Below, in pieces: positions 33,318 through 63,211 of a stretch of 64,000 nucleotides of DNA. The stretch is from Spirochaetota bacterium (GTDB lineage Bacteria > Spirochaetota > UBA4802 > UB4802). Numbering within the stretch: position 1 is the stretch's first letter; each line of letters starts with the position of its first letter. A program made the translations under genes and the position numbers. The notes below the pieces were generated by a model. The model saw only the letters and a list, made by a program, of their open reading frames with translations. It was not told where the DNA came from and did no database searches. Where the stretch lies: contig JBFLZD010000003.1 of the NCBI GenBank assembly GCA_040756435.1, forward strand, positions 1 through 64,000, in the 5' to 3' direction.

Positions 33318-36300
33318 CTATGACAACTTCCTTTCTTGTTTTTGTTGTGCGGTATCTTTGATGAGTGTTAAATACGGCACAACAGCATCATTTTTAAAGC
33401 TACCAGTACCATCATACGTTAAGCTTACCACCGGCACACCAGTCACCTCATAAATCTTATGCGCCATTGCTTCAGTTATAAGGGATGGGCAACAAAATGC
33501 AGGGCTTGTTTGTACAAACAGCTTAATATCAGGATAATGCTGCAAAAGCGAAAATATCTTGATAAGATTATCAAACGATTCGCCGGTATGATACATGGTT
33601 ACGCCAAACTGTGATAATACTTTTTCAAAGTCTACAGTATATACTGGATTTGGCTCATTCAGCAGAGTTTCAAAATAACTGTAGTATTTCTTTTCCATAC
33701 GTTCAACTGCTGTCAGCAATGTTTTACCGGTAACTATCGCCCCATATTTTCCTTCCCTGAACCATTTTTTAAAATACGGATTGGCTATCATCTTGGCATA
33801 GTAATTATACGGTGTTGTGATAACCTCACCGCCATGTTTTTCAATAAAAGCTATAAGGTTTTGATTCATAACATCGTTGTCACGAACATACAGGTCGCCA
33901 AATATTGCCACTTTGGGACGATTAGTGCGTTTAACCTTTATTGCATTGAATCGTTTAACCATAGTACCCAGTGCATCTGACCATTCCATTTCATCCCTGA
34001 AAGCTTGCTCAAACTCGTTCATGGTTTGCTCAATAGCTTTATCAGTGGAACCATGAATGCATTCATATGGTCTGAAATGGCACCCTACTCTTCGCAGCAA
34101 TCCGCTAAACATAAAAGCAAAATAACTGTAAATAGCTGCTTTAATTGAAACTTCCTTAAATGAGATATCGCCCACAAACACTCGTGTATGTTCAAATCCT
34201 TTGCCATAACTATCAAAAATACTTTTTATAAAATACGGATACATACGAATATTACACGCAATTTCAGAATCAGCCATCCACAATATTGTTTTAGCAGGAT
34301 CTAAATTATGCTTTTCTACATAATCAATGTATTCATACGCAATGATGTTTAAAGGAATACATTGCCCAGTATTGGTTCGTGTGCCTTTTGCAATAAGCGC
34401 ATCATCTTCATAAAGTATATGCGCATCAATGCCTTCACGCTGCAAATTTGCCCTTAAAAGACGTGCTGCCATCATATCCCAGTTTGGCAGCAACACTGTT
34501 TTACCGTGTAATGATTCCCGTGTAATTGAAGGAACAACATGGAGATGTGTCACTGGTGAAGTTTTTGATGTGTAATGATTTTTAAACGAACGGATTGCCG
34601 CTTCAATGCGCGTTTCATACCCAACGGTTGAATCATGCTCATCAAGCTGCAAAATTAAATACGGTTTGCCTGCTTTATCCATGATACGTTTAAAGTATTC
34701 CATCACAAACGAATCAGGTGCACATTTAAACGATGTAACCAGCACAGGATATAACCCATCCTTTTTGGCAATGACATGTGCTGTTTCAATTACTTTTGAA
34801 GCATAATACCAGTGAAATGCTTTAAGCAAATCGTCAATTTCTTCAACATCCTTCCTGGAATACTCAATCATATCCTGATATAACACTGGCATCCCTAAAT
34901 TCACAAACATTGAAGGTATGGATTTATTCATTGACTCAGGTAATACATTATACGGCCTGCCAAGCAAAACCACAGCCATGCCCTTGTGTGACTTCAAAAA
35001 TTGAGTACCCACTTTCAGTAGTTTTTTGCTTTTTTCCTTATACGCTGTCAGTGCCTGCTCAAAAGCCATCATGATTTCAAGGTAATTAGCATCAATGTTC
35101 ATCTTTTTACATGAATTAAATAATGCCATTCTACTTTGCAGTGGCTGTATTTCATAATTAAGTACAGGCGATAGTACCTTTGAAGAAGCTTCAGGCACAA
35201 GATGACCCAATGCAGGCGCAAATTGTGTATAATAACAATACTGCCTGCGCGCCTCTTGTGGTGCATCCTTTTCTATATAAAATGGGGTAAAGATGTAATC
35301 ACATTTATCAGCAAGATATGCAATATGACCATGAAAAGCTGCCATAGGTGCACAGAATTCCGCCTGTGCTAAACGCTTGCCGGTAGCTACCGGATCGGGG
35401 CAATCCATGCTGGTGGTAACACTAACACCCAAACGGGTAAAGAAATCAATCCACAGGTCAATCTCATCTACTAAGTGAAGTGCTGCTGGTATTCCTACTG
35501 TTGCTGTTGTATGTTTGGTTGACGTAAATACAATCTTTTTTCGTTCTTTTACAAAATCAAATATGCCTTTTGTTTTGCTGACAAACTTTTTATAATGATA
35601 ATCCCTGCCACATAAAAATCCAAATGCAACAACCTCATTATCAATAGTAGCTACTTTAAGTTTGCAGTGATTGGTGCATAGATTGCATACTTCATTTTTA
35701 ATAGGTATGTCTTTTTTATATAAGTCTATGCCACGAAATTTTGTCTTTCCGGTATATGTTTCCATCACTTCAAGTGCGCAACCCAGTGCACCGGTTAAAT
35801 GGCAATACTTTGAAACAAATATTGGCTTTTGCAATCGCTGTTCAAACGCTGCTACCAGTGCCTTGTTTTTTGCTGTGGCACCTTGAAAGCACACTAACTT
35901 ACCAATCTTTGCCTCGCCCGAAACCTTTGATAAATAATTTTCCACTACCGAATGCAGCACTGTTGCAAGCAATTCATCAGTTGAATAGCCTTTACTCATA
36001 AGGTAGTTGATATCGCGCTCCATAAATACAGTGCAACGATCACTTGCAACTGGCGACTGTTTACCCAACGCCCTGTGAGCATATTCAGAAAGGGGACAAC
36101 CTAATTTATATGCCTGCTCTTCAATAAAGCTTCCGGTTCCGGCGGCGCACACATTGTTCATCTGCGAAAATACCACATTACCATTTTTCAGCATGGTAAA
36201 CTTTGAATCCTGTCCACCAATTTCAATAATTGTATCAACATCAGGATGTAGCGCAACTGCTGCTTTTGCATGCGCAGAAATTTCATCAAGGATTACATCG

Positions 36301-37496
36301 GCACCAATGAGCGTTCCTATAAACTTTCGCCCTGAACCGGTAGTGGCTGCTCCTTTAATGGTTAACGTAACACTATTACGCTGTACATAGCTATCAAGCG
36401 CTTCAAACAATGATTGCACTGCTTCAAGTGGTTTTCCGGCAGTACGGGTATAGAAACCAGCCAGCATAGTACCGGAACTATCGATCACTGCCATTTTGGT
36501 GCTTGTAGAACCAATATCAATGCCAATAAAAGCCTCAGTGTGGGGCATAAATGTTGTATAGATATCAACTTCAACTTCGTGCCTTGATTTAAAAATATAT
36601 GATTCCTTGCCAGCAAAATCAGGATACTGGCTCAAAATTATATCTAATGTATCATAGTGGTATTCTTTGTGCTCATTTGTATGCGCAAATTCAATTGCTA
36701 CCTCTTCATCTTGCGCATTGGAAACAGCCCACAGTGCAGCACCTAAACTACCATACAGGTGCGATAACTCCGGCACTAAAACGTTTGTATTAAGAATTGA
36801 TTCTAAGTGTTTAATAACTGCCTTATTCAATGACACACCACCTACTATTGCTATAGGCTCCAAAGGCTTTTTACTTGCAAACAATGTATCGGCAATATTT
36901 CTTGCAAGACCAGAACACAGGCCATCACAAATTTCATAAATACTGTAACCTTCCTGCTGCACATGGATAAGGTCAGTCTTTGCAAATACCGCACAGCGTG
37001 ATGCTATTTTGGGTATATCACCGTAATTCTTGAGCGCTAACTCTGAAAGCTGGTGTGAACCTTCAAGCTGCAATCGCCGTGCTTGCTGATCTAAAAAGCC
37101 ACCTGTACCCGCAGCACAACTTGTGTTTCCCCGGTATTGCGAATAATTGCCATATTCATCAAATTCAATCACACCAAACTTTTCACCCCCAATGATAACC
37201 ATTGTTCTAACATGGGGCATATACTCCTTAGCTGTCTGAACATAGGCTACCTGTGTATTGACAATTGAAGCTTTCAACACTTGTGATGTTGATGAAGTTA
37301 TGGCTATACCTGCTACTTTTGTTATTTGTTTTTCAAGTAAATAGTGTTCGATAGTATCCTTAATCCTGCCATGATGATATGTATAGTATGTATCAATAAT
37401 GTTTTTATTTTCATCCAGTATGACAATTGAAAGAGCAGTTGAACCTGCATCAATACCAATATAATAATTAACAGCACTGTCATGATTCTTCTCCAT
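33318..37496 (-). CDS. fused acyl-CoA dehydratase activase (BcrA/BadF/HgdC-type), 1392 residues
   Basis: The product fuses two ASKHA ATPase domains: first about residues 10-275 (GIDAGSTALS, CAAGTGGFLDQQ, GGVSLNKAV), second about 320-570 (GIDIGSTSTKMAV, IGGQDSKF, CAAGTGSFIEEQ). These activate 2-hydroxyacyl-CoA dehydratases by ATP-driven electron transfer. Next comes a DUF2229-type part (CNLCTNHCKLKVATI, GFLCGRDY) and a long C-terminal region related to the dehydratase subunits (DCPDPVATGKRL, GRPYNVLPESMNK). The ATG at 37496 with SD gaggtg replaces a longer ORF. No separate dehydratase genes are adjacent. It is anaerobic-type chemistry, probably in amino- or fatty-acid metabolism. Confidence 0.9.
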   Translation of the reverse strand: MEKNHDSAVNYYIGIDAGSTALSIVILDENKNIIDTYYTYHHGRIKDTIEHYLLEKQITKVAGIAITSSTSQVLKASIVNTQVAYVQTAKEYMPHVRTMVIIGGEKFGVIEFDEYGNYSQYRGNTSCAAGTGGFLDQQARRLQLEGSHQLSELALKNYGDIPKIASRCAVFAKTDLIHVQQEGYSIYEICDGLCSGLARNIADTLFASKKPLEPIAIVGGVSLNKAVIKHLESILNTNVLVPELSHLYGSLGAALWAVSNAQDEEVAIEFAHTNEHKEYHYDTLDIILSQYPDFAGKESYIFKSRHEVEVDIYTTFMPHTEAFIGIDIGSTSTKMAVIDSSGTMLAGFYTRTAGKPLEAVQSLFEALDSYVQRNSVTLTIKGAATTGSGRKFIGTLIGADVILDEISAHAKAAVALHPDVDTIIEIGGQDSKFTMLKNGNVVFSQMNNVCAAGTGSFIEEQAYKLGCPLSEYAHRALGKQSPVASDRCTVFMERDINYLMSKGYSTDELLATVLHSVVENYLSKVSGEAKIGKLVCFQGATAKNKALVAAFEQRLQKPIFVSKYCHLTGALGCALEVMETYTGKTKFRGIDLYKKDIPIKNEVCNLCTNHCKLKVATIDNEVVAFGFLCGRDYHYKKFVSKTKGIFDFVKERKKIVFTSTKHTTATVGIPAALHLVDEIDLWIDFFTRLGVSVTTSMDCPDPVATGKRLAQAEFCAPMAAFHGHIAYLADKCDYIFTPFYIEKDAPQEARRQYCYYTQFAPALGHLVPEASSKVLSPVLNYEIQPLQSRMALFNSCKKMNIDANYLEIMMAFEQALTAYKEKSKKLLKVGTQFLKSHKGMAVVLLGRPYNVLPESMNKSIPSMFVNLGMPVLYQDMIEYSRKDVEEIDDLLKAFHWYYASKVIETAHVIAKKDGLYPVLVTSFKCAPDSFVMEYFKRIMDKAGKPYLILQLDEHDSTVGYETRIEAAIRSFKNHYTSKTSPVTHLHVVPSITRESLHGKTVLLPNWDMMAARLLRANLQREGIDAHILYEDDALIAKGTRTNTGQCIPLNIIAYEYIDYVEKHNLDPAKTILWMADSEIACNIRMYPYFIKSIFDSYGKGFEHTRVFVGDISFKEVSIKAAIYSYFAFMFSGLLRRVGCHFRPYECIHGSTDKAIEQTMNEFEQAFRDEMEWSDALGTMVKRFNAIKVKRTNRPKVAIFGDLYVRDNDVMNQNLIAFIEKHGGEVITTPYNYYAKMIANPYFKKWFREGKYGAIVTGKTLLTAVERMEKKYYSYFETLLNEPNPVYTVDFEKVLSQFGVTMYHTGESFDNLIKIFSLLQHYPDIKLFVQTSPAFCCPSLITEAMAHKIYEVTGVPVVSLTYDGTGSFKNDAVVPYLTLIKDTAQQKQERKLS

Positions 37497-37615
37497 AGTA
37501 TTCACCTCTCTATTTGTATGACAATAATAAATATGACATTTATCTATAATATGTTTACTGAGATAATTATACACTCTGCTTCAAAATAATCAACAAAAAT
37601 TTAAAAAATAAAAAT

Positions 37616-39457: not shown

Positions 39458-39970
39458 TTACTTATAATACTTCCCAAACTGTAGTTTGCGTAACAATGGG
39501 GCAACTATCGCCCCTAAATAACGCAATGCAATATAGTTAAATTTTAAATCAATAAGCTCAATAAGATTACCATCCATATCCTGCATAAACACCCATTCAT
39601 TGGGGCCAGTTTTCTGTGGCTGGCATAAAAATGTTACACCTTTATCTTTTAGCTTTTTATACCATTTCTTCACATTCCGTACATCCAGGGTAATATGTGT
39701 TAAACCAATTTTATTCCAGCATACCTTATCAGAAGGGATAGCAGGAGTAAATTCAAATATTTCAAGCACCGCACCACCTGGTGTACGCAAAAAGCCAAGA
39801 CGTAATTTTGTATTTTTCAAGCCATAAAGGCTATACAATGCTTCAACCTGTTTTTCATCCATAGTTTCCTCAGCAACCAGTGGGAACCTGAACATTTCCC
39901 AATACCATTTTACTGCTTTTTCAAAATTACTTACCGTAATTCCAACATGGCTTAATGATTTTACCTTCAT
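39458..39970 (-). CDS. VOC (glyoxalase/dioxygenase) superfamily protein
   Basis: The 170-residue product has one full VOC module: SHVGITVSNFEKAVKWYWEMF (about residues 6-26, with metal-ligand His), TPGGAVLEIFEF, IGLTHITLDVRNVKKWYKKL (second His) and GNLIELIDL (Glu ligand). The family includes glyoxalases, methylmalonyl-CoA epimerases and dioxygenases, all metal-dependent. The ATG at 39970 with SD gggaggt is preferred. It is the last gene of the SCP2/aminotransferase/transketolase operon, which suggests an isomerase-like or lyase-like step on its product (inference). ACTATCGCCCC occurs at 39504-39514. Confidence 0.85.
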   Translation of the reverse strand: MKVKSLSHVGITVSNFEKAVKWYWEMFRFPLVAEETMDEKQVEALYSLYGLKNTKLRLGFLRTPGGAVLEIFEFTPAIPSDKVCWNKIGLTHITLDVRNVKKWYKKLKDKGVTFLCQPQKTGPNEWVFMQDMDGNLIELIDLKFNYIALRYLGAIVAPLLRKLQFGKYYK

Positions 39971-40062
39971 GATACCTCCCATTGATAATATACGTTTTTT
40001 TATTTACAACAATGCAGGTTGCCTTTGACTGGCAGCCTGCATTACAAAAGAATATTGCAACG

Positions 40063-40839
40063 TTATGATGCTAATTGTCCAACCGTATTCATGAATGAAC
40101 CTATCTCTTTGCCATATTCCGGTGAACCTTCAATAACAAGGACACGATTTATTGAGGCTTCTATCATATCAGTGGTTTGTAATAAAATACCTAATGCACC
40201 ATCAACGCTATCAAATTTAAATTCCACAAATGGTTTAGAACGAGTATATTTGCCCCTCCCTGCCTTAGAATTCCCTGCCTTCATGCGCAGATACGAAGCT
40301 ATATCAGTTCCGGTTACCGACCATGCAAAAGTTCTGTCGGGGCTTTTTTTACAAAATTTTGATATCTCAGGATGACCGGCTTTGTTAAGCTGGCTTATTC
40401 CAAGTGGCAGCAAATAAAGCATAAGCCGTACCATAAGCTCACGGTCTTCTTTCTTTTTTGGTGGGGTTTTCCTGCCAATGATCTTAAGTGCCAGTAATAA
40501 ATTCACTGCTTTCATTAACAGTTTAAATTTAGTTAAGCCTTTTATTGATGGCACTGCTGGCTTGCCGGCAAAAAATGCATTCATAGTCTTTACATCCTTA
40601 AATGTAAAGACTATATCTGGTTTTTCATGAATGCCATACTTTACATCCAGAACACCATCAATAAACTGCAGATATGCACCAATATCGCCAGCATCATCCT
40701 TTGCAATAAACTGCACCACACCATTTAAACCTTTGTACTTTGCAGCCATCTTTGGTCTGTATTCCAGTATTACTTTAATAAGTGGCAATGCGGCTTTTAG
40801 AAAAATTGTTGATGCAAACAATTCGTTCTGGGTTGCCAT
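40063..40839 (-). CDS. SCP2-like sterol/lipid-binding protein (second copy in operon)
   Basis: The 258-residue product has an SCP2-like domain (about residues 25-120): VVQFIAKDDAGDIGAYLQFI, VKYGIHEKPDIVFTFKDVKTM and FAGKPAVPSIKGLTKF. The rest is helical and less conserved, ending in DMIEASINRVLVIEGSPEYG. SCP2 proteins bind lipids or acyl-CoA in a hydrophobic tunnel. The start (SD gaggtg) is 1 nt after the transketolase stop, so they are translationally coupled. Together with the second SCP2-like protein it suggests a hydrophobic pathway intermediate. Confidence 0.78.
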   Translation of the reverse strand: MATQNELFASTIFLKAALPLIKVILEYRPKMAAKYKGLNGVVQFIAKDDAGDIGAYLQFIDGVLDVKYGIHEKPDIVFTFKDVKTMNAFFAGKPAVPSIKGLTKFKLLMKAVNLLLALKIIGRKTPPKKKEDRELMVRLMLYLLPLGISQLNKAGHPEISKFCKKSPDRTFAWSVTGTDIASYLRMKAGNSKAGRGKYTRSKPFVEFKFDSVDGALGILLQTTDMIEASINRVLVIEGSPEYGKEIGSFMNTVGQLAS

Positions 40840-40840
40840 A

Positions 40841-41854
40841 TTACACCTCGTCTTCCCAGTCTTCAGTTTGTTCAAAATCCTTGCCCATAATCTGCCGTAC
40901 TTTTTCAATAATCTTATTCTGATCAAAGCCATAGTAGTTTTGTAAATCTTCAGGCAGTCCAATGATTGCATATTCATCAGGTATGCCAACCGATTCAAAT
41001 GCACAGGCTTTCCCGCTTTTTACTATAACTTCAGCAACTGCACTTCCCAATCCACCATAGATATTGTGGTCTTCAAATGTCACAATTCGCCGTGTTTCCA
41101 TAACCGCTTTAAGTATTGCCTCTTCATCTATAGGCTTTATAGTATGCATGTTGAGAACCCGCACACTCAATCCATCATCTTTTTCAAGAATACCAGCAGC
41201 ATGGTAGGCATTATACGCAGCAGCACCACATGCTATAATTGTGATATCAGTACCATCTTTAAGCTGTACTGCTTTACCTATCTGGAAACCATAATCAGAC
41301 TTTTCGTACAAAAATGGGTCAAAGCCGCGATTGATTCGTATATACACTGGACCTTTGTATTCATACGCAGCAATAACCGCATTTGCAGTTTCAATACCAT
41401 CTGCCGGGGCTATCACCACCATATTTGCAAATGAACGCATTACCGCTAAATCTTCGGTGCAATGATGAGTGGTACCTGCCTGCCCAAACGATGTCCCCGC
41501 ATGGGTGGCAATAATCTTTACATTAAGCTTTGGATAACAAATATCAGTACGCACCTGCTCAGCAGCACGAAGTGATGCAAATACCGCAAATGTGGATACA
41601 AACGGAGTAAGCCCTGATTTTGCAAGCCCCGCAGCCATGCCAAACATATTCTGCTCAGCAATACCTGCATTAAAAAATCTGTTTGGAAACTTTGCCGCAA
41701 ACTGGCCAATCTTTGTGGACTTGGCTAAATCTGCTGAAAGTCCCACAATATCATTATGTTTTTCAGCTAAGTCACATAAAACCTTACCATAAATTTCAGC
41801 AGTTGACATATTGGCAGTGTCAACGATAGTATATGTTAATCCATCAGCAGCCAT
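40841..41854 (-). CDS. transketolase, C-terminal (pyrimidine-binding) subunit
   Basis: The 337-residue product is the second half of a split transketolase: GLSADLAKSTKIGQFAAKFP, the catalytic Glu region AEQNMFGMAAGLA (about residues 61-75), HAGTSFGQAGTTHH and a C-terminal domain from about 195. It works with the subunit encoded just upstream to make a thiamine-diphosphate site. SD is aaggagg. Split transketolases appear in dedicated biosynthetic loci as well as in the pentose pathway; the neighbours here point to the former. Confidence 0.9.
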   Translation of the reverse strand: MAADGLTYTIVDTANMSTAEIYGKVLCDLAEKHNDIVGLSADLAKSTKIGQFAAKFPNRFFNAGIAEQNMFGMAAGLAKSGLTPFVSTFAVFASLRAAEQVRTDICYPKLNVKIIATHAGTSFGQAGTTHHCTEDLAVMRSFANMVVIAPADGIETANAVIAAYEYKGPVYIRINRGFDPFLYEKSDYGFQIGKAVQLKDGTDITIIACGAAAYNAYHAAGILEKDDGLSVRVLNMHTIKPIDEEAILKAVMETRRIVTFEDHNIYGGLGSAVAEVIVKSGKACAFESVGIPDEYAIIGLPEDLQNYYGFDQNKIIEKVRQIMGKDFEQTEDWEDEV

Positions 41855-41869
41855 TGTTTTCCTCCTTAT

Positions 41870-42712
41870 TTACATTTCACAATAATGTTTGTCTATACAA
41901 GCTTTGGCAAGTTCAACCTTTTCACTATCCAGTCCACCATAGTGCCATTCATATTTATCTTCCATAAAATCCACACACTTGCCTTTAATTGTATGCGCAA
42001 TTATAACAACCGGTGCTTTATCTTCCTTCTGTGCATATTCAATTGCATCAGCTAATTGATTAAAATCATGTCCATCAACTTCTTTCACAATCCAGCCAAA
42101 AGCTTTCCACTTATCAGCAAATGGTTCAAGGCGCATAACCTCTTCCGTTGGGCCATCTATCATCATTCTGTTGCGGTCAACGATAGTTACCAAATTAGTA
42201 ACCTTATAGTGTGCGGCAGCCATTGCAGCTTCCCACACCGAGCCCTCATCACACTCACCGTCTCCCATTATACAATATGTGAGCCAGGATTTATTCTGCA
42301 AGCGTGCACCTATTGCCAACCCCACCGCTATTGGCAAACCATGCCCTAATGAACCAGTGGATACATCAACACCCGGCACCTTGTTGCCATCTAAATGCAT
42401 TCCCAATATTGAACCGGTGTGATTATATTCTTTCAAAAGCTCTTTTGGGAAATAGCCCTTATCAGCTAAAATTGGTGCATATCCCACCCCCGCATGTCCC
42501 TTGCTCAGTACAACCCTATCTCTGTCAGGCCATTGTGGATTTTTGGGATCAATATTTAAATACTTATAGTAAAGAATAACCATAATTTCGGTAAAACTTA
42601 ACGAGCCACCCACATGTCCACCACCTGCCCAATATACAGTGTCAATAGTGTCCTTTCGTATCTGACATGCTTTTTCATTGAGCTGTTTTAATTCCTGCTG
42701 GCTTAACGGCAT
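41870..42712 (-). CDS. transketolase, N-terminal (ThDP-binding) subunit
   Basis: The 280-residue product has the thiamine-diphosphate motif GDGECDEG...DRNRMM (about residues 151-183), plus GGHVGGSLSFTEIMVILYY, LSKGHAGVGYAP and GHGLPIAVGLAIGA. It pairs with the next gene (15 bp downstream) as a two-subunit transketolase transferring two-carbon ketol units. SD is aaggagg. No other pentose-phosphate gene is near. Confidence 0.92.
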   Translation of the reverse strand: MPLSQQELKQLNEKACQIRKDTIDTVYWAGGGHVGGSLSFTEIMVILYYKYLNIDPKNPQWPDRDRVVLSKGHAGVGYAPILADKGYFPKELLKEYNHTGSILGMHLDGNKVPGVDVSTGSLGHGLPIAVGLAIGARLQNKSWLTYCIMGDGECDEGSVWEAAMAAAHYKVTNLVTIVDRNRMMIDGPTEEVMRLEPFADKWKAFGWIVKEVDGHDFNQLADAIEYAQKEDKAPVVIIAHTIKGKCVDFMEDKYEWHYGGLDSEKVELAKACIDKHYCEM

Positions 42713-42805
42713 ATATATCCTCCTTGTTTACAGTAATTTTTCATAAAATTCTTATGGGCGATAGTTACTGCTAAGATAACCCCATTCATGGTACAATTGC
42801 AAGCA

Positions 42806-44107
42806 TTAATATTTTTCACCATATTTCTTCTTCAACAATTGGCATACATCATCAACGATATTCCACGTCTTCTGAATATCCTTATCTGTGTGTGCGGCTG
42901 ATACAAACCAATTGTGATGCGAAGTAAAATAAGCACCACGGGCTGTACACTCAGCACACCATTCCTGATGCAGAATATTGCTTGGATCATTGGTAATGCG
43001 GACATACGGCATGGAATATGCGCCGGTAACTTTCAAATCATAACCATACTGTCCGCATATTTTAACCATACCATCGAAAAGTTTTTTGCCAATCTTATTC
43101 ATAAGTACAGGAGCATTAATCCTTTTTAATTCTTTCAATGTAGCTAGAGCGGCAGCCATAGGTACAGCCTGATACCAGTAACTGCCTGTGTAAAAAACCT
43201 TTGCAGCAACAGTCCGTAGCGCATCAACACCAACCAGTGCTGAAATGGGATAACCATTGGCAATAGCTTTACAATAACATGCTAAATCAGGTTTAAACCC
43301 AAAATACGCTCCTGAGCCGCGCATATCAAGTCTAAACCCACAACGAACATCATCAATAATAAGCACTATGCCATGCTTGGTACACAGTTCGCGAATACGC
43401 TGCCAGTAGCCAGTAGCAGGGAATTCACTATCAGCAAATGTTGGATGATGATATGGTGTGGCAATAAACCCTGCAATACCATTAGGATTGGCGGCAATTG
43501 CCTCTTCAAACTGTGTAACATTATTCCATTCTATACCAATGATGTTTGCAATATCTTCTTCTATTACACCATAGTGACCATACCCCTGCATCCAGGGAGC
43601 AACGCCATGATATCCGCCTTTTATCATGACAATTTTTTTCCTGCCAGTTGCAGCGCGGGCAATCATAATTGCTAAATTGGTAACATCACCACCATTTTTG
43701 GCAAAGAAAGCCCAGTCGGCACCAGCAATTGTAGAACATAACATTTCAGCTAAATCCACCATTATTTTACCGGGTGCTGACATGCAATCGCCCTTTTGCC
43801 TTTGCTGGCTTGCCGCAGCTTCAACTTTTGGATTATTATACCCCAGCACCATTGGACCATATGCACACATATAATCAATAAACTCATTACCATCAATATC
43901 CCAAAAGCGCGAACCCTTTGCCTTTTCAGCATAAAAGGGATACATGGTAGGTGGAACAAGTGGCGCGGGACTAAAATGCCCGGGAATACCACACGGTATA
44001 ACTTTTAAAGCACGCTGAAATAATTTTTGCGAATTAGAATATGTATACGTCTTACTTTTTATTTTTGCTGCCGAACTTTGTGTTGTTCCTTTAGCTTCTA
44101 GTTTCAT
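42806..44107 (-). CDS. class III aminotransferase, glutamate-1-semialdehyde aminomutase-like
   Basis: The 433-residue product is a PLP enzyme of class III: AYGPMVLGYNNPKVEAAASQQ, IARAATGRKKIVMIKGGYHG, the PLP-contacting Asp in LIIDDVRCGFR (about residue 245), the Schiff-base Lys in YCKAIANGYPISALVG (about 275), and GSYWYQAVPMAAALATL. It lacks heme-synthesis neighbours and sits between an SCP2-like protein and split transketolase, so it probably aminates a keto group of a dedicated metabolite (inference) rather than making 5-aminolevulinate. SD is gaggtg. Confidence 0.88.
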   Translation of the reverse strand: MKLEAKGTTQSSAAKIKSKTYTYSNSQKLFQRALKVIPCGIPGHFSPAPLVPPTMYPFYAEKAKGSRFWDIDGNEFIDYMCAYGPMVLGYNNPKVEAAASQQRQKGDCMSAPGKIMVDLAEMLCSTIAGADWAFFAKNGGDVTNLAIMIARAATGRKKIVMIKGGYHGVAPWMQGYGHYGVIEEDIANIIGIEWNNVTQFEEAIAANPNGIAGFIATPYHHPTFADSEFPATGYWQRIRELCTKHGIVLIIDDVRCGFRLDMRGSGAYFGFKPDLACYCKAIANGYPISALVGVDALRTVAAKVFYTGSYWYQAVPMAAALATLKELKRINAPVLMNKIGKKLFDGMVKICGQYGYDLKVTGAYSMPYVRITNDPSNILHQEWCAECTARGAYFTSHHNWFVSAAHTDKDIQKTWNIVDDVCQLLKKKYGEKY

Positions 44108-44129
44108 AATAACACCTCATAAAAAGATT

Positions 44130-44888
44130 TTATACTAAATATAAAGCAATCCTGTCCAAAACAGGACTTACTGCATCCAACCATTCAATATGCCCTTTAG
44201 TAGCAACAGCACCAGAAGCTATTGCACTGAATGCATCCATCTTGCCATTTAAAAAATCATTGGCTATTTTCATTGATTTGAATTGTAATACTGCAAGTGG
44301 TTGTTCATGGTAGCCTTTATGCACTTCAAACCCGTTGTCCTTTTGTTCAATATACACAGCAGGGCCTTTATCAACATTCATCATCACCATGCTTCCTTTG
44401 ATTTTCTTTGCAATGTGTTTCCCAATGGGATCAAAAAGTAGTAATTCTTTCAGTGCAAATAAAGCGGTGTTTAACGTCATGATGGTATTTATTGTAACAA
44501 ACTTGTTATCCTTCAATTTGTTGTCATCAGGCTTCAGATAGTATTCTAAGCGTTCAGTGAGTTTTGGAAATTCTTTTGTTAAAAATCCAAGTTTTGTTAA
44601 ACCCTTTAATGGGATGGGATTTGCTTTGCCATCAAACATTTTGTTTAGATGTGCAGGTGAAGTAAAAAATAACACAATATCAGGTTTTTTTTCAGTGCTA
44701 TCTGTAACAATACATTTTCCATTTTCAAAAATTAAATTTACATTTCCGCTACCCTTAACAGTGAATTTTATTACTACGTTCCAGTCTTTAATAAGTTTTT
44801 TTGCTTCCTCATCATACTGAACAAGATCTTCAATATTTTGTAAAACAGCATAGAGATGTAACCGTGATTTTATGAAATCATAATTCAT
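44130..44888 (-). CDS. SCP2-like sterol/lipid-binding protein (first gene of operon)
   Basis: The 252-residue product resembles two weak SCP2 modules: first about residues 30-115 (GSGNVNLIFENGKCIVTDST, PDIVLFFTSPAHLNKMFDGK, IPLKGLTKLGF), second about 165-250 (GPAVYIEQKDNGFEVHKGYH, AVLQFKSMKIANDFLNGKMD). It should bind a hydrophobic ligand. It leads the operon and starts 126 bp downstream (minus strand) of the TetR-type palindrome. SD is aaggagg. Confidence 0.78.
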   Translation of the reverse strand: MNYDFIKSRLHLYAVLQNIEDLVQYDEEAKKLIKDWNVVIKFTVKGSGNVNLIFENGKCIVTDSTEKKPDIVLFFTSPAHLNKMFDGKANPIPLKGLTKLGFLTKEFPKLTERLEYYLKPDDNKLKDNKFVTINTIMTLNTALFALKELLLFDPIGKHIAKKIKGSMVMMNVDKGPAVYIEQKDNGFEVHKGYHEQPLAVLQFKSMKIANDFLNGKMDAFSAIASGAVATKGHIEWLDAVSPVLDRIALYLV

Positions 44889-45013: not shown

Positions 45014-45041
45014 ATATATGAGTGAGTACTTACTCATATAT
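45014..45041. promoter_or_regulatory. TetR-type operator palindrome
   Basis: ATGAGTGAGTA meets TACTTACTCAT head to head at 45018-45037. The arms extend through flanking atat on both sides to 28 bp with one mismatch per arm. The TGA(G)TGA...TCA form is like operators of TetR-family fatty-acid regulators. It lies in the leader region of the SCP2/aminotransferase/transketolase operon, so a repressor encoded elsewhere probably controls it. Confidence 0.65.
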
Positions 45042-45083
45042 AATATATAAAAAATATGTCAACAAAAAAAATATTTTTATTTT

Positions 45084-46025
45084 TTATATTATTGTTATTA
45101 ATGGTACATATTTTTTTTCATATAGAACAAACTCAAGTGATTGTCGCTTGCCATGTTCATCAATATACTGCGCCTGAAATATATCACTTATTTCGGCACC
45201 ATTTTTTAGTTCAATGTATCCATGCTCAATTAATTGAAGCAAAAATGTTCTGATAATACCAAACGACATCTTCTGGATATTCACATCGCCGTGATGTTCA
45301 TGATCATACAAACCTAAATTAACATCAGCAACCTTACAGTTGGATAACACCGCATCTATATTTATTCCTGTTTCAACACCATACATCTGCCAGAAGCTCA
45401 CTTTTGTAAAAAAGGAAAGCGTACCAGCAACTTCCCCGCTTAATGGATAGGCTAATTTACGCAGTGGTTCTAAATTACTATGAACTATCGCCGAAAACAA
45501 AGGTTGTGCTACATACTTTTTTACCCTGCCCATTTCCCGCCAAAAACTTGCTTTGGCAAAATCATACCCTTGCAACACTGCGCCAGCCAGTCCTAACACA
45601 AAATGTGTTCCAAAATAGTGTGCAACCACATCAGCATCCAGAAAAACTATAACTGTATTATGGATATCTGCCTTATATCCAGTAATAAGATAATATAGGG
45701 ATCTACGCATGTCGGCACCCTTACCTTTTTCAAGGCCCATATCTGGCACATTAATTGCATTACAAACTATGACCTTTGCTCTGCTGCTTGCTTCCTTAGC
45801 TTTTATCTCGGTCAATTCTTCTTTATCATCATCGAGACGTCGGTGAGACACGAATATACCATCAACACTTTGTAATGTATCGATAAGTCGTATTTTTTGA
45901 TATATAAGTTCTGCCTCACGCTCACCAAAAGTGGAAAATATCACATAAATTTTTCTATTTCCCTTTATCTTTACAAGGCTTTCATCATTGAAATCAGTAG
46001 CTTCAAAATAATCGATTATACTCAT
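45084..46025 (-). CDS. GT-A fold glycosyltransferase, glucosyl-3-phosphoglycerate synthase-like
   Basis: The 313-residue product has GREAELIYQ-type N-terminus, a nucleotide-sugar DXD-like motif in VIVFLDADVVAHYFGTHFV (about residues 128-146) and YPLSGEVAGTLSFF (about 200-213), which is the signature of GT81 (GpgS/MpgS-type) enzymes. It could make a glucosyl- or mannosyl-glycerate precursor or related glycoside. There is no signal peptide. It stops 43 bp from the palindrome controlling the next operon. ACTATCGCC occurs at 45484-45492. Confidence 0.78.
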   Translation of the reverse strand: MSIIDYFEATDFNDESLVKIKGNRKIYVIFSTFGEREAELIYQKIRLIDTLQSVDGIFVSHRRLDDDKEELTEIKAKEASSRAKVIVCNAINVPDMGLEKGKGADMRRSLYYLITGYKADIHNTVIVFLDADVVAHYFGTHFVLGLAGAVLQGYDFAKASFWREMGRVKKYVAQPLFSAIVHSNLEPLRKLAYPLSGEVAGTLSFFTKVSFWQMYGVETGINIDAVLSNCKVADVNLGLYDHEHHGDVNIQKMSFGIIRTFLLQLIEHGYIELKNGAEISDIFQAQYIDEHGKRQSLEFVLYEKKYVPLITII

Positions 46026-61012: not shown

Positions 61013-61681
61013 TTATTTACCATTCTCTAAATAGTTTTTTATGCCATATAGATAATCTTTTATACTCTTTTTTGTAAGGCTGTTTTCCACAAACCCTGGA
61101 ACAGGCACTGAAACTTCAACAACCGGAGCATAGTACAGTAGGGTGGTATTGTCATCCATTGATATGCAATATTGATATCCTTCAATATTTCTAATTCCAC
61201 TACTGTGGGGATTAATATGATTTGTAATGTTATACAACTTTATATCATCATCCGATAGCAATCGCCATTTCTGAAAATAATTGTTTTTTTGATTTTGTAC
61301 TATGAGTGTATATCTAAATTTTAAAAATGTAACATGTATCTGACCCTCAATGACAGATGTAGTGCCATTTATTTTTGTTAACACCTTATAATAATCCAGA
61401 CCATCGACATAGTGGGACATATGTTCCCAATCAAGAATACATTTCCACACTTCTTCAACAGGTTTTTGTATCAGTATTGCACCAACAACACGCGCCATCT
61501 CACCTTCCTGTGTTTTTTGTTTATATTTTTTTATAATACTATTACCCGCTTTTAACGCGTTAATATCCTCTTTACTTAAATCCGAAGGGAAATTATTAGA
61601 ATATGCATTATAATAAACAATAATTAAACTTACTATAAGTACAATCATCGTTTGTATAATTTTGTTAAATTTAAAGTGCAT
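61013..61681 (-). CDS. exported or membrane-anchored START/SRPBCC-fold protein
   Basis: The 222-residue product has an N-terminal hydrophobic segment (about residues 10-28) followed by a START-like domain (about 60-215; KPVEEVWKCILDWEHMSHYV, EGQIHVTFLKFRYTLIV, LLYYAPVVEVSVPVPGFV). The family binds hydrophobic ligands. It is 24 bp after the GMC oxidoreductase stop in the same direction, so the START-like protein may bind the oxidase substrate. SD is aggaag. Confidence 0.78.
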   Translation of the reverse strand: MHFKFNKIIQTMIVLIVSLIIVYYNAYSNNFPSDLSKEDINALKAGNSIIKKYKQKTQEGEMARVVGAILIQKPVEEVWKCILDWEHMSHYVDGLDYYKVLTKINGTTSVIEGQIHVTFLKFRYTLIVQNQKNNYFQKWRLLSDDDIKLYNITNHINPHSSGIRNIEGYQYCISMDDNTTLLYYAPVVEVSVPVPGFVENSLTKKSIKDYLYGIKNYLENGK

Positions 61682-61705
61682 AGGTCTTCCTAAATAATGT
61701 ACTCT

Positions 61706-63211
61706 TTACTTTTGCTTTTTTAGATCATCTGCAATATGCTGCGAAATCTTTGTTGCAAGTGCCATTATTGTTATCTGTGGATTTACTCCCAGTGATGTTG
61801 GTACAATGCTGCCATCGGCAACATACAGATTGTCCGTGTTGAAACATTTGCCATTGCTATCAACTACTCCCCAGTTACTATCGCCACCCATACGACATGT
61901 ACCCAATGGATGAAATGCAAATACTTCAGGTATGTGCGTTCTTTTTATGGTGTGCATTTTAAGTTTAACAACATCATCCATTGAATGTATCATTGGGAAT
62001 GAAGCGATAGGGGTAAATATTTTTTTTGCTCCTGCCGCTATGAAAACTTCGGACAAATATGCTATACCCTTTTTTAATGTTTCGATATCCTGTGTATTCA
62101 GATTATACCATGATAACGGCGTATCCAGCGAACCAAAAACCTTTCCCTGACCGGTGTCATGTACCATAACCCCAAATGCAGCAATATGCGAAAATTGCTG
62201 TGCCAGCTCAAAAAATTCATTCCCAATCCCTGGCAACGATGCAGTTAATATTGATGGGTGCACAAATATGCCTTCCAACATAATGCCTTCATCTGCATAA
62301 TCATCAATATATGCACCCTGTGAAACACCAACCCAACCATTAACTACTTCTTCCATCAGAGCAACAACACGCGAACATGGATGTATCTGGAGGTGTTTGG
62401 CAAGATGTTTATTCTTAACACCACTTTTTTTAAGCAATAATGGCGTAATCATTGTACCACATGCGCAGACTATGATTTTTGCTTTCACAATGCACTGTGC
62501 AATATTTTCCCCTTTGTCACCAATAACATTACATTGCACAGCATATGCTTTATTGTTTTTAAAGAGTATCTTTTGTGCTTTGCAATGAGTAAGCAATTGA
62601 GTATTATATTGCAATGCACGTGGGATGTAGCTTACCTCGGTACTTTGTTTTGCTCCTTCAACACAGCCAAACTGGCATGTACCACACCCCTTGCAATTTT
62701 TAACATTGTGCTTTAATGGCTTGCAATGTAAACCCAATGCATCAGCACCGCGTTTGATAATCTTTGCACAGTTACCCAGGACATCCCAGGATAATTCCGT
62801 CACATTAATAATCTTCTCTACTCTTTCAAAATATGGTTCCAAGTTTTTGTAATCTATATTAACCCGCAAATTTTCTTTCCACTGCATAATAATATGTTCT
62901 GGCGTACGAAAACATGTTGCCGAATTAATTGCGGTTGTACCACCAACACATCTGCCGGTAGGAATGGAAATTGGAGGAATGCCAAATGAAACAGTACTAC
63001 CTGCCCCACGCCACATTGTTTTCATATTCTTTAAAGGCTTTCCATCATAATCGTTTGTTGTATAATAGCCACCTTCTTCAATGACAATGACACTGTAACT
63101 CATCAAAGCTAACTCATATGCTACAACAGCGCCACCAGCTCCGCTGCCTATAACACACACATCAGCATCAAATGAATTATACTTTTTATAATCGTTTTGT
63201 GAGTATATCAT
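61706..63211 (-). CDS. GMC-family FAD oxidoreductase
   Basis: The 501-residue product has the FAD Rossmann motif VIGSGAGGAVVAYELA (about residues 19-34), GGTTAINSATCFR, a Cys-rich insert CKGCGTCQFGC (about 175-185), and the C-terminal FHPLGTCRMGG and VADGSIVPTSLGVNPQITIMALA blocks with the catalytic His region. Relatives oxidise alcohols, including sterols and sugars. Part of an operon with a small protein upstream and the START-like gene downstream. The Cys motif is notable; it may bind an Fe-S cluster. ACTATCGCC occurs at 61877-61885. Confidence 0.9.
   Translation of the reverse strand: MIYSQNDYKKYNSFDADVCVIGSGAGGAVVAYELALMSYSVIVIEEGGYYTTNDYDGKPLKNMKTMWRGAGSTVSFGIPPISIPTGRCVGGTTAINSATCFRTPEHIIMQWKENLRVNIDYKNLEPYFERVEKIINVTELSWDVLGNCAKIIKRGADALGLHCKPLKHNVKNCKGCGTCQFGCVEGAKQSTEVSYIPRALQYNTQLLTHCKAQKILFKNNKAYAVQCNVIGDKGENIAQCIVKAKIIVCACGTMITPLLLKKSGVKNKHLAKHLQIHPCSRVVALMEEVVNGWVGVSQGAYIDDYADEGIMLEGIFVHPSILTASLPGIGNEFFELAQQFSHIAAFGVMVHDTGQGKVFGSLDTPLSWYNLNTQDIETLKKGIAYLSEVFIAAGAKKIFTPIASFPMIHSMDDVVKLKMHTIKRTHIPEVFAFHPLGTCRMGGDSNWGVVDSNGKCFNTDNLYVADGSIVPTSLGVNPQITIMALATKISQHIADDLKKQK

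Follow-up and report, generated by a model that had tools for sequence, protein, structure and literature searches.

A conserved operon of an aminotransferase, a split transketolase and two SCP2-like proteins with a possible role in sphingoid-base metabolism

Why are an aminotransferase, a split transketolase and two SCP2-like proteins encoded side by side in a member of the Spirochaetota? The genes in question lie in a window (the whole 64,000-nucleotide stretch analysed here) from contig C3 of a Spirochaetota metagenome-assembled genome (MAG) of 3.6 Mb and 99.65% completeness, labelled G000. A preliminary description of this DNA had reported six tightly spaced genes of one direction and had proposed a dedicated pathway for synthesis of an aminated polyol or amino-lipid. 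An open reading frame check detected all six genes (SCP2A, AT3, TKN, TKC, SCP2B and VOC) on the minus strand, running from 44888 down to 39458, and the Pfam families agreed with that description. The analyses presented here suggest, with slightly better than even confidence, that the operon specifies a sphingoid-base pathway in which the aminotransferase acts before the transketolase, with the SCP2 proteins as carriers and breakdown as the favoured direction. The features are as follows, the start codons of SCP2B (ATG, 40839) and VOC (ATG, 39970) having been adjusted.

45020..45035, minus strand: predicted TetR-type operator core GAGTAAGTACTCACTC within the predicted imperfect palindrome TGAGTAAGTACTCACTCA, 132 bp 5′ of the SCP2A start
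44130..44888, minus strand: SCP2A, predicted tandem SCP2-fold lipid carrier, 252 aa (PF02036, 7.4e-14; AlphaFold2 [AF2] model)
42806..44107, minus strand: AT3, class III pyridoxal phosphate (PLP) aminotransferase of the FumI branch, 433 aa (PF00202, 1e-38)
41870..42712, minus strand: TKN, N-terminal, thiamine diphosphate (ThDP)/Mg-binding half of a split transketolase, 280 aa (PF00456, 6.8e-47)
40841..41854, minus strand: TKC, pyrimidine-binding and C-terminal half of the split transketolase, 337 aa (PF02779, 8e-42; PF02780, 7e-29)
40063..40839, minus strand: SCP2B, predicted tandem SCP2-fold lipid carrier, 258 aa (PF02036, weak, 1.3e-4; AF2 model)
39458..39970, minus strand: VOC (glyoxalase/epimerase superfamily) accessory protein, 170 aa (PF00903, 6.6e-15)

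The intergenic gaps are 22 bp (SCP2A-AT3), 93 bp (AT3-TKN), 15 bp (TKN-TKC), 1 bp (TKC-SCP2B) and 92 bp (SCP2B-VOC).

Conservation of the gene order

An alignment scan of GTDB contigs with AT3 recovered 567 relatives; the best 80 were kept, and 58 of these loci had enough flanking sequence to be scored. The order SCP2A-AT3-TKN-TKC-SCP2B was retained on one strand in 48 of the 58 scorable loci, with median gaps of 15, 32, 5 and 3 bp, indicating that the operon arrangement is not due to chance. The five genes were found in Spirochaetota and about nine other phyla. Carriers included Desulfobacterota (Desulfosarcina widdelii and Desulfatibacillum alkenivorans), Bacteroidota (Draconibacterium), Clostridia (Lutispora, Vallitalea and Oceanirhabdus), Hydrogenedentota, Actinomycetota (Thermoleophilia), Verrucomicrobiota, Myxococcota, Nitrospirota and Chlorobiota; many are MAGs, such that individual phylum placements may be wrong while the general spread is not. 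Genes for alanine dehydrogenase, an old yellow enzyme (OYE)-type reductase or aldehyde dehydrogenase adjoined the operon in other phyla, the first in Desulfobacterota and one Spirochaetales locus and the latter two in Bacteroidota and Clostridia.

Within the same taxonomic order, the unit was made up of two halves, SCP2A-AT3 and TKN-TKC-SCP2B. All five genes were contiguous in families f1, f4 and f7, while the halves were located on separate contigs in family f5, and two genomes of f5 (G013 and G022) exhibited the transketolase-SCP2B half only. In Paenibacillus and a few others, SCP2A-AT3 was present without a transketolase. SCP2A stayed with AT3 where the transketolase was absent and SCP2B stayed with the transketolase where AT3 was absent; each enzyme, therefore, has a private SCP2 partner. 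Three of the transketolase-free pairs (L137, 7808-11239; L138, 7830-11233; L069, 7497-11245) were located behind genes for an amino-acid permease (Paenibacillus) or a sodium:neurotransmitter symporter.

VOC was detected in only 14 of the 80 loci, being a sixth gene in the family of the window genome and in Clostridia and Spirochaetales loci and absent elsewhere. It was, therefore, rejected as a core member and is regarded as an optional accessory, reducing the six-gene pathway first described to a core of five. The VOC protein scored 38 to 41 bits against equivalog cut-offs of at least 115 and so failed as a housekeeping glyoxalase I or methylmalonyl-CoA epimerase.

The two enzymes and their SCP2 partners

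In searches of the PDB, the best match of AT3 was FumI (6hbs), with E values of 3e-114 for the profile and 1e-97 for the single sequence, as compared to 7e-58 and 1e-44, respectively, for glutamate-1-semialdehyde aminomutase (GSAM). AT3 exhibited 40% identity to FumI and 26% identity to the hemL product of the same genome, and 90 of 96 AT3 proteins scored better against FumI than against hemL. A quick tree with few outgroups joined FumI to the operon AT3 family and excluded HemL (support of 0.99). The PLP lysine, K280, was conserved. Against the GSAM equivalog, with a cut-off of 398 bits, AT3 scored 230 bits; a role as GSAM, a haem enzyme, was rejected because the genome has its own separate hemL (G000:C18; L195) and FumI is nearer.

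FumI of Sphingopyxis sp. MTA144 (PDB 6hbs/6hbv), a class III PLP enzyme of fumonisin catabolism, is the closest characterized relative of AT3. From hydrolysed fumonisin B1 (an analogue of sphinganine) and pyruvate, FumI yields a 2-keto product and alanine (PMC2933618). Moving the amino group at C2 of a long-chain 2-amino-3-hydroxy substrate onto pyruvate is known for FumI and would be the expected activity of AT3. FumI differs in that it groups outside the operon AT3 family and has no known transketolase or SCP2 partners. This kinship points to sphingoid bases as the likely substrates rather than to a generic aminated polyol, and there is a good probability that the substrate is a sphingoid or closely similar base. 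The amino-lipid of the preliminary description was, in this respect, close, while synthesis, the direction then proposed, is not the likelier one.

TKN and TKC were most similar to the N chain (6yak) and to 6yaj, respectively, of the split transketolase of Carboxydothermus hydrogenoformans, the closest solved relative, which also consists of two chains and has the same catalytic residues. The equivalents of the catalytic and cofactor-binding residues of Escherichia coli transketolase (Ec; EcHis26, EcHis66, EcHis100, EcHis261, EcHis473, Asp155 and Asn185) were all conserved across 75 to 79 family members. In the acceptor site, the position of EcAsp469 was occupied by Ala in 72 of 75 members and by Gly in the other 3, that of EcArg91 by Asn in 77 of 79, and that of EcArg358 by Ala in 54 of 75 and Arg in 14 of 75. 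The Carboxydothermus enzyme, in contrast, retains the equivalents of Asp469, Arg91 and Arg358 and, as far as reported, has no linkage to aminotransferase or SCP2 genes; a split transketolase does not have the linker by which full-length enzymes constrict the site (PMC7661550). In the E. coli enzyme, Asp469 forms a salt bridge with Arg91, changes of Asp469 admit non-polar, non-hydroxylated aldehydes, and substitutions of this residue were selected during evolution of the enzyme from phosphorylated towards non-polar aldehydes (PMC5073344). If a plain alkyl aldehyde were the acceptor or product, absence of both residues in a natural enzyme would be expected.

An additional full-length transketolase was present in most genomes of the order, while G002 had the operon copy only. 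No full-length transketolase was found in the window genome, where the PF02779 matches consisted of the operon pair, DXS and a divergent split pair, L003 (423-2370; G000:C38). In the latter, Asn takes the place of Asp469, equivalents of Ser385 and His461 are missing, and the C-terminal half is without an obvious start. Four genomes contained a second conserved set composed of a zinc alcohol dehydrogenase-like gene, TKN, TKC, SCP2B and a short-chain dehydrogenase/reductase (SDR)/epimerase gene:

L183 1298-6382, L184 4172-7886, L185 7255-12285 and L182 1-4861: zinc dehydrogenase-TKN-TKC-SCP2B-SDR sets

These transketolases had the same acceptor-site changes as those of the operon but no operator, and this set is possibly a sister lipid pathway reaching the same ketone through oxidation of an alcohol.

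Both SCP2 proteins are predicted to be tandem SCP2 folds. The AF2 models (mean predicted local distance difference test scores of 90 for SCP2A and 92 for SCP2B) each contained two SCP2-like alpha/beta lobes. In Foldseek, the SCP2B model matched human SCP2 and the SCP2-like domain of alkylsulfatases (SdsA1/Pisa1 at the top), with overall TM-scores that were low because single domains were matched; a PDB search with the SCP2A profile gave no match. SCP-X thiolase, MFE-2 and SdsA1/Pisa1 also combine an SCP2 fold with an enzyme for aliphatic substrates, whereas in the operon each enzyme has a carrier of its own, a free-standing tandem-SCP2 protein. As suggested earlier, the two proteins may hold a hydrophobic intermediate.

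An operator common to the operon and sphingolipid genes

A TTGACA-like −35 element was read by eye at about 45057-45062, near the operator 5′ of SCP2A. Sites resembling TGAGTAAGTACTCACTCA were also present 5′ of SCP2A in Spirochaetota, Desulfobacterota and Clostridia, and a TetR gene often adjoined the operon; the window genome contains a 53%-identical orthologue of this TetR on C8. The pattern GAGTRAKNRNTCRYTC was scanned over 35 genomes, with the reversed pattern as the control. Up to 13 strand matches per genome were detected in the order, as compared to 0 to 1 per genome for the reversed pattern. The latter is the fair control, as the random-window background (4.3% exact matches) is inflated by loci having been fetched for their sites.

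The operator was detected at 0 to 1 mismatch 5′ of SCP2A in each of the 19 loci from the order that were tested (exact in 17), 5′ of a homologue of serine palmitoyltransferase (SPT) in 12 of 13 f1/f5 genomes, and 5′ of the detached TKN in all eight f5 genomes, while none was observed 5′ of TKN within an operon. Further sites were located 5′ of alanine dehydrogenase in G000, G001 and G003, of a related PNT-alpha-like (transhydrogenase) gene in G008, G017, G009, G018, G035 and G002, and of ceramidase-family genes in G035 and G017 (no mismatches) and G002 (one mismatch). Thiolase and enoyl-CoA hydratase genes also adjoined operator sites. In the window genome, the SPT homologue is on C70, under the operator but not in the operon; its best solved relative is the Sphingobacterium SPT (1e-121). 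Ceramidase-family genes were present in 9 of 21 operon-positive and 6 of 38 operon-negative relatives, a modest co-occurrence, and hence the operator evidence was relied on instead. For a single pathway and for its substrate class, the strongest evidence is that the separated halves retain this predicted operator and share it with putative sphingolipid genes.

Other proteins were also encoded at operator sites. A secreted protein of ∼330 aa with the motif GDIILSTSPG...SHSGMAVD (L233, 6255-7241; L235, 6146-7207; L243, 6025-7017), present as two copies under the operator in the window genome, had no Pfam match, resembles a permuted papain/YiiX-type fold and is a candidate lipid amidase. An alpha/beta-hydrolase-like protein of 349 aa (L245, 1961-3010; L177, 13479-14528) is encoded divergently from the SPT homologue with the operator in common. 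A secreted protein of ∼680 aa with no Pfam match (L247, 3653-5704; L250, 4017-6080; L249, 1-1503) was encoded under the operator in three genomes of family f5.

Proposed reactions, direction and alternatives

The gene order kept across phyla and the remodelled acceptor site argue for the dedicated lipid-linked pathway of ketol transfer and (de)amination envisaged at the outset. In the proposed scheme, SCP2A would present the lipid to AT3, which would convert a long-chain base and pyruvate reversibly to a 3-hydroxy-2-ketone and alanine, the base being a long-chain 2-amino-3-hydroxy compound, either a 1,3-diol or 1-deoxy, whose 2-amine is exchanged for a 2-ketone. SCP2B would present the lipid to the transketolase, which would interconvert the hydroxyketone and an aldose phosphate with a fatty aldehyde and a ketose phosphate, breaking or making the C2-C3 bond, with the C2 ketol on ThDP being handed to the sugar aldehyde. 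Given a sphingoid-type substrate, this sequence of AT3 and then transketolase is quite probable. Alanine dehydrogenase, whose gene is under the operator in f1, would recycle alanine to pyruvate and ammonia, the neighbouring aldehyde dehydrogenase and OYE-type reductase would suit disposal of (unsaturated) aldehydes, and a TetR repressor would govern the operon along with other sphingolipid genes. Breakdown in this manner would be independent of oxygen and would require neither sphingosine kinase nor sphingosine-1-phosphate lyase.

Several observations weigh against this reading. The identity of AT3 to FumI is just 40%, and the cluster of FumI is without a transketolase. Three of the four phosphate-binding residues (the equivalents of Ser385, His461 and Arg520) remain in TKC, and sugar phosphates are, therefore, still likely partners of the transketolase. 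The E. coli transketolase gives products that are 3S at C3 whereas natural sphingoid bases are 3R, a discrepancy unless the operon enzyme or VOC alters C3; epimerization of C3 by VOC is, for this reason, put forward as a speculation. The SPT homologue scored 503 bits, under the NCBIfam SPT cut-off of 640, and as a co-regulated gene of synthesis would suit synthesis or homeostasis equally as well. Many operon genomes had no ceramidase-family genes, and the operator of these genes has two mismatches in the f1 copies of G000, G001 and G004.

The same chemistry could serve synthesis: the transketolase would join a fatty aldehyde to a C2 ketol, and the resulting ketone would be aminated by AT3 at the expense of alanine, so that a sphingoid base is formed with no need for SPT. 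The SPT homologue sharing the operator speaks for synthesis, and the operon could substitute for SPT in the many operon genomes in which the searches made here gave no SPT-like gene (f4, f7, several Desulfobacterota and Clostridia); f1 and f5, however, have both rather than one replacing the other. Cascades of transketolase and transaminase yield 2-amino-1,3-diols in biocatalysis. Synthesis would also fit the richness of anaerobic sediment bacteria in sphingolipids: about one-fifth of the lipids of anoxic Black Sea sediment belong to this class (PMC12619533), and its makers seem to include anaerobes from many phyla (PMC11334938). Neither the operon nor the operator sites, however, yielded a reductase that would form fatty aldehydes, and breakdown is favoured by the degradative look of the genes co-regulated with the operon (ceramidase family, thiolase, enoyl-CoA hydratase and alanine dehydrogenase). 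A synthetic role is, on this balance, rather doubtful, and breakdown is the fairly likely direction.

It is unlikely that the substrate is instead another hydrophobic amine or ketol, such as an amino-lipid or aminopolyol, with the operator belonging to a general membrane-lipid regulator. The 40% identity to FumI leaves room for this, some operon-free AT3-SCP2A pairs adjoin amino-acid-type transporters, and the paralogous TKN-TKC-SCP2B set with zinc dehydrogenase and SDR genes in four genomes indicates that transketolases of this family work in more than one pathway; the SPT homologue, ceramidase-family genes, FumI-like aminotransferase and alanine dehydrogenase nevertheless agree in direction. 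That the transketolase is a housekeeping pentose-phosphate enzyme in an incidental neighbourhood of lipid genes, as the lack of a detected full-length enzyme in the window genome and the lone operon copy in G002 might suggest, was rejected as very improbable, since the genes were found together rather than scattered across phyla, a separate full-length transketolase is present in most relatives of the order, the acceptor site is altered in every member and a predicted TetR operator is in control.

The sphingoid-base pathway proposed here resembles the route through sphingosine kinase and sphingosine-1-phosphate lyase in making the same split, into a fatty aldehyde and a C2 unit carrying the former C1-C2; that route differs in using phosphorylation and a PLP lyase and in giving phosphoethanolamine. 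Neither a sphingosine-1-phosphate lyase nor a sphingoid-base kinase was present among the operon or annotated operator-linked genes, the rest of the genome not having been searched. Classical synthesis differs in its use of SPT, which the operon itself does not encode. An anaerobic route that dismantles the sphingoid backbone has not, to our knowledge, been described. SphBCD of Pseudomonas aeruginosa likewise represents inducible bacterial sphingoid-base metabolism, with a product that is unknown, but consists of a periplasmic oxidoreductase, a cytochrome c and a PLP aldolase-like protein and has no genes in common with the operon (PMC11893366). In agreement with the preliminary description, a literature search restricted to open-licence papers found no description of this gene set or of a link between sphingoid bases and transketolase; we rate the operon as new as a pathway, assembled from known enzyme families, with a putative function.

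The chances are about even that bacteria in many phyla, mostly those of anoxic habitats, use a lipid-acting transketolase, a FumI-like aminotransferase and two SCP2 carriers to cleave or assemble sphingoid bases. Such a transketolase would tie sphingolipid metabolism to pentose-phosphate sugars, bypassing sphingosine-1-phosphate lyase and, in reverse, SPT. Breakdown would provide a marker gene set for sphingolipid flux, a lipid-acting transketolase and a design of enzyme plus private carrier; the reverse direction would represent a second route to sphingoid bases. New aminotransferase/transketolase pairs for production of amino-diols may also be obtained.

Other genes of the window were considered as partners. 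The region 45084-46025, 5′ of the operon, encodes a glycosyltransferase distantly akin to glucosyl-3-phosphoglycerate synthase (GpgS). Links of the operon to this gene and to TMEM43-like and HgdC-like neighbours were rejected as the association was restricted to the genus, and the glycosyltransferase was excluded also because the operator separates it from SCP2A. The region 33318-37574 encodes a protein of 1418 aa in which BadF/HgdC-type activator domains are duplicated and DUF2229 is also present. At 61013-63211, a START/SRPBCC-like secreted protein adjoins a GMC-type oxidoreductase, and a secreted lipid-binding-type protein resembling it was located under the operator in G008 (L246, 5088-5732).

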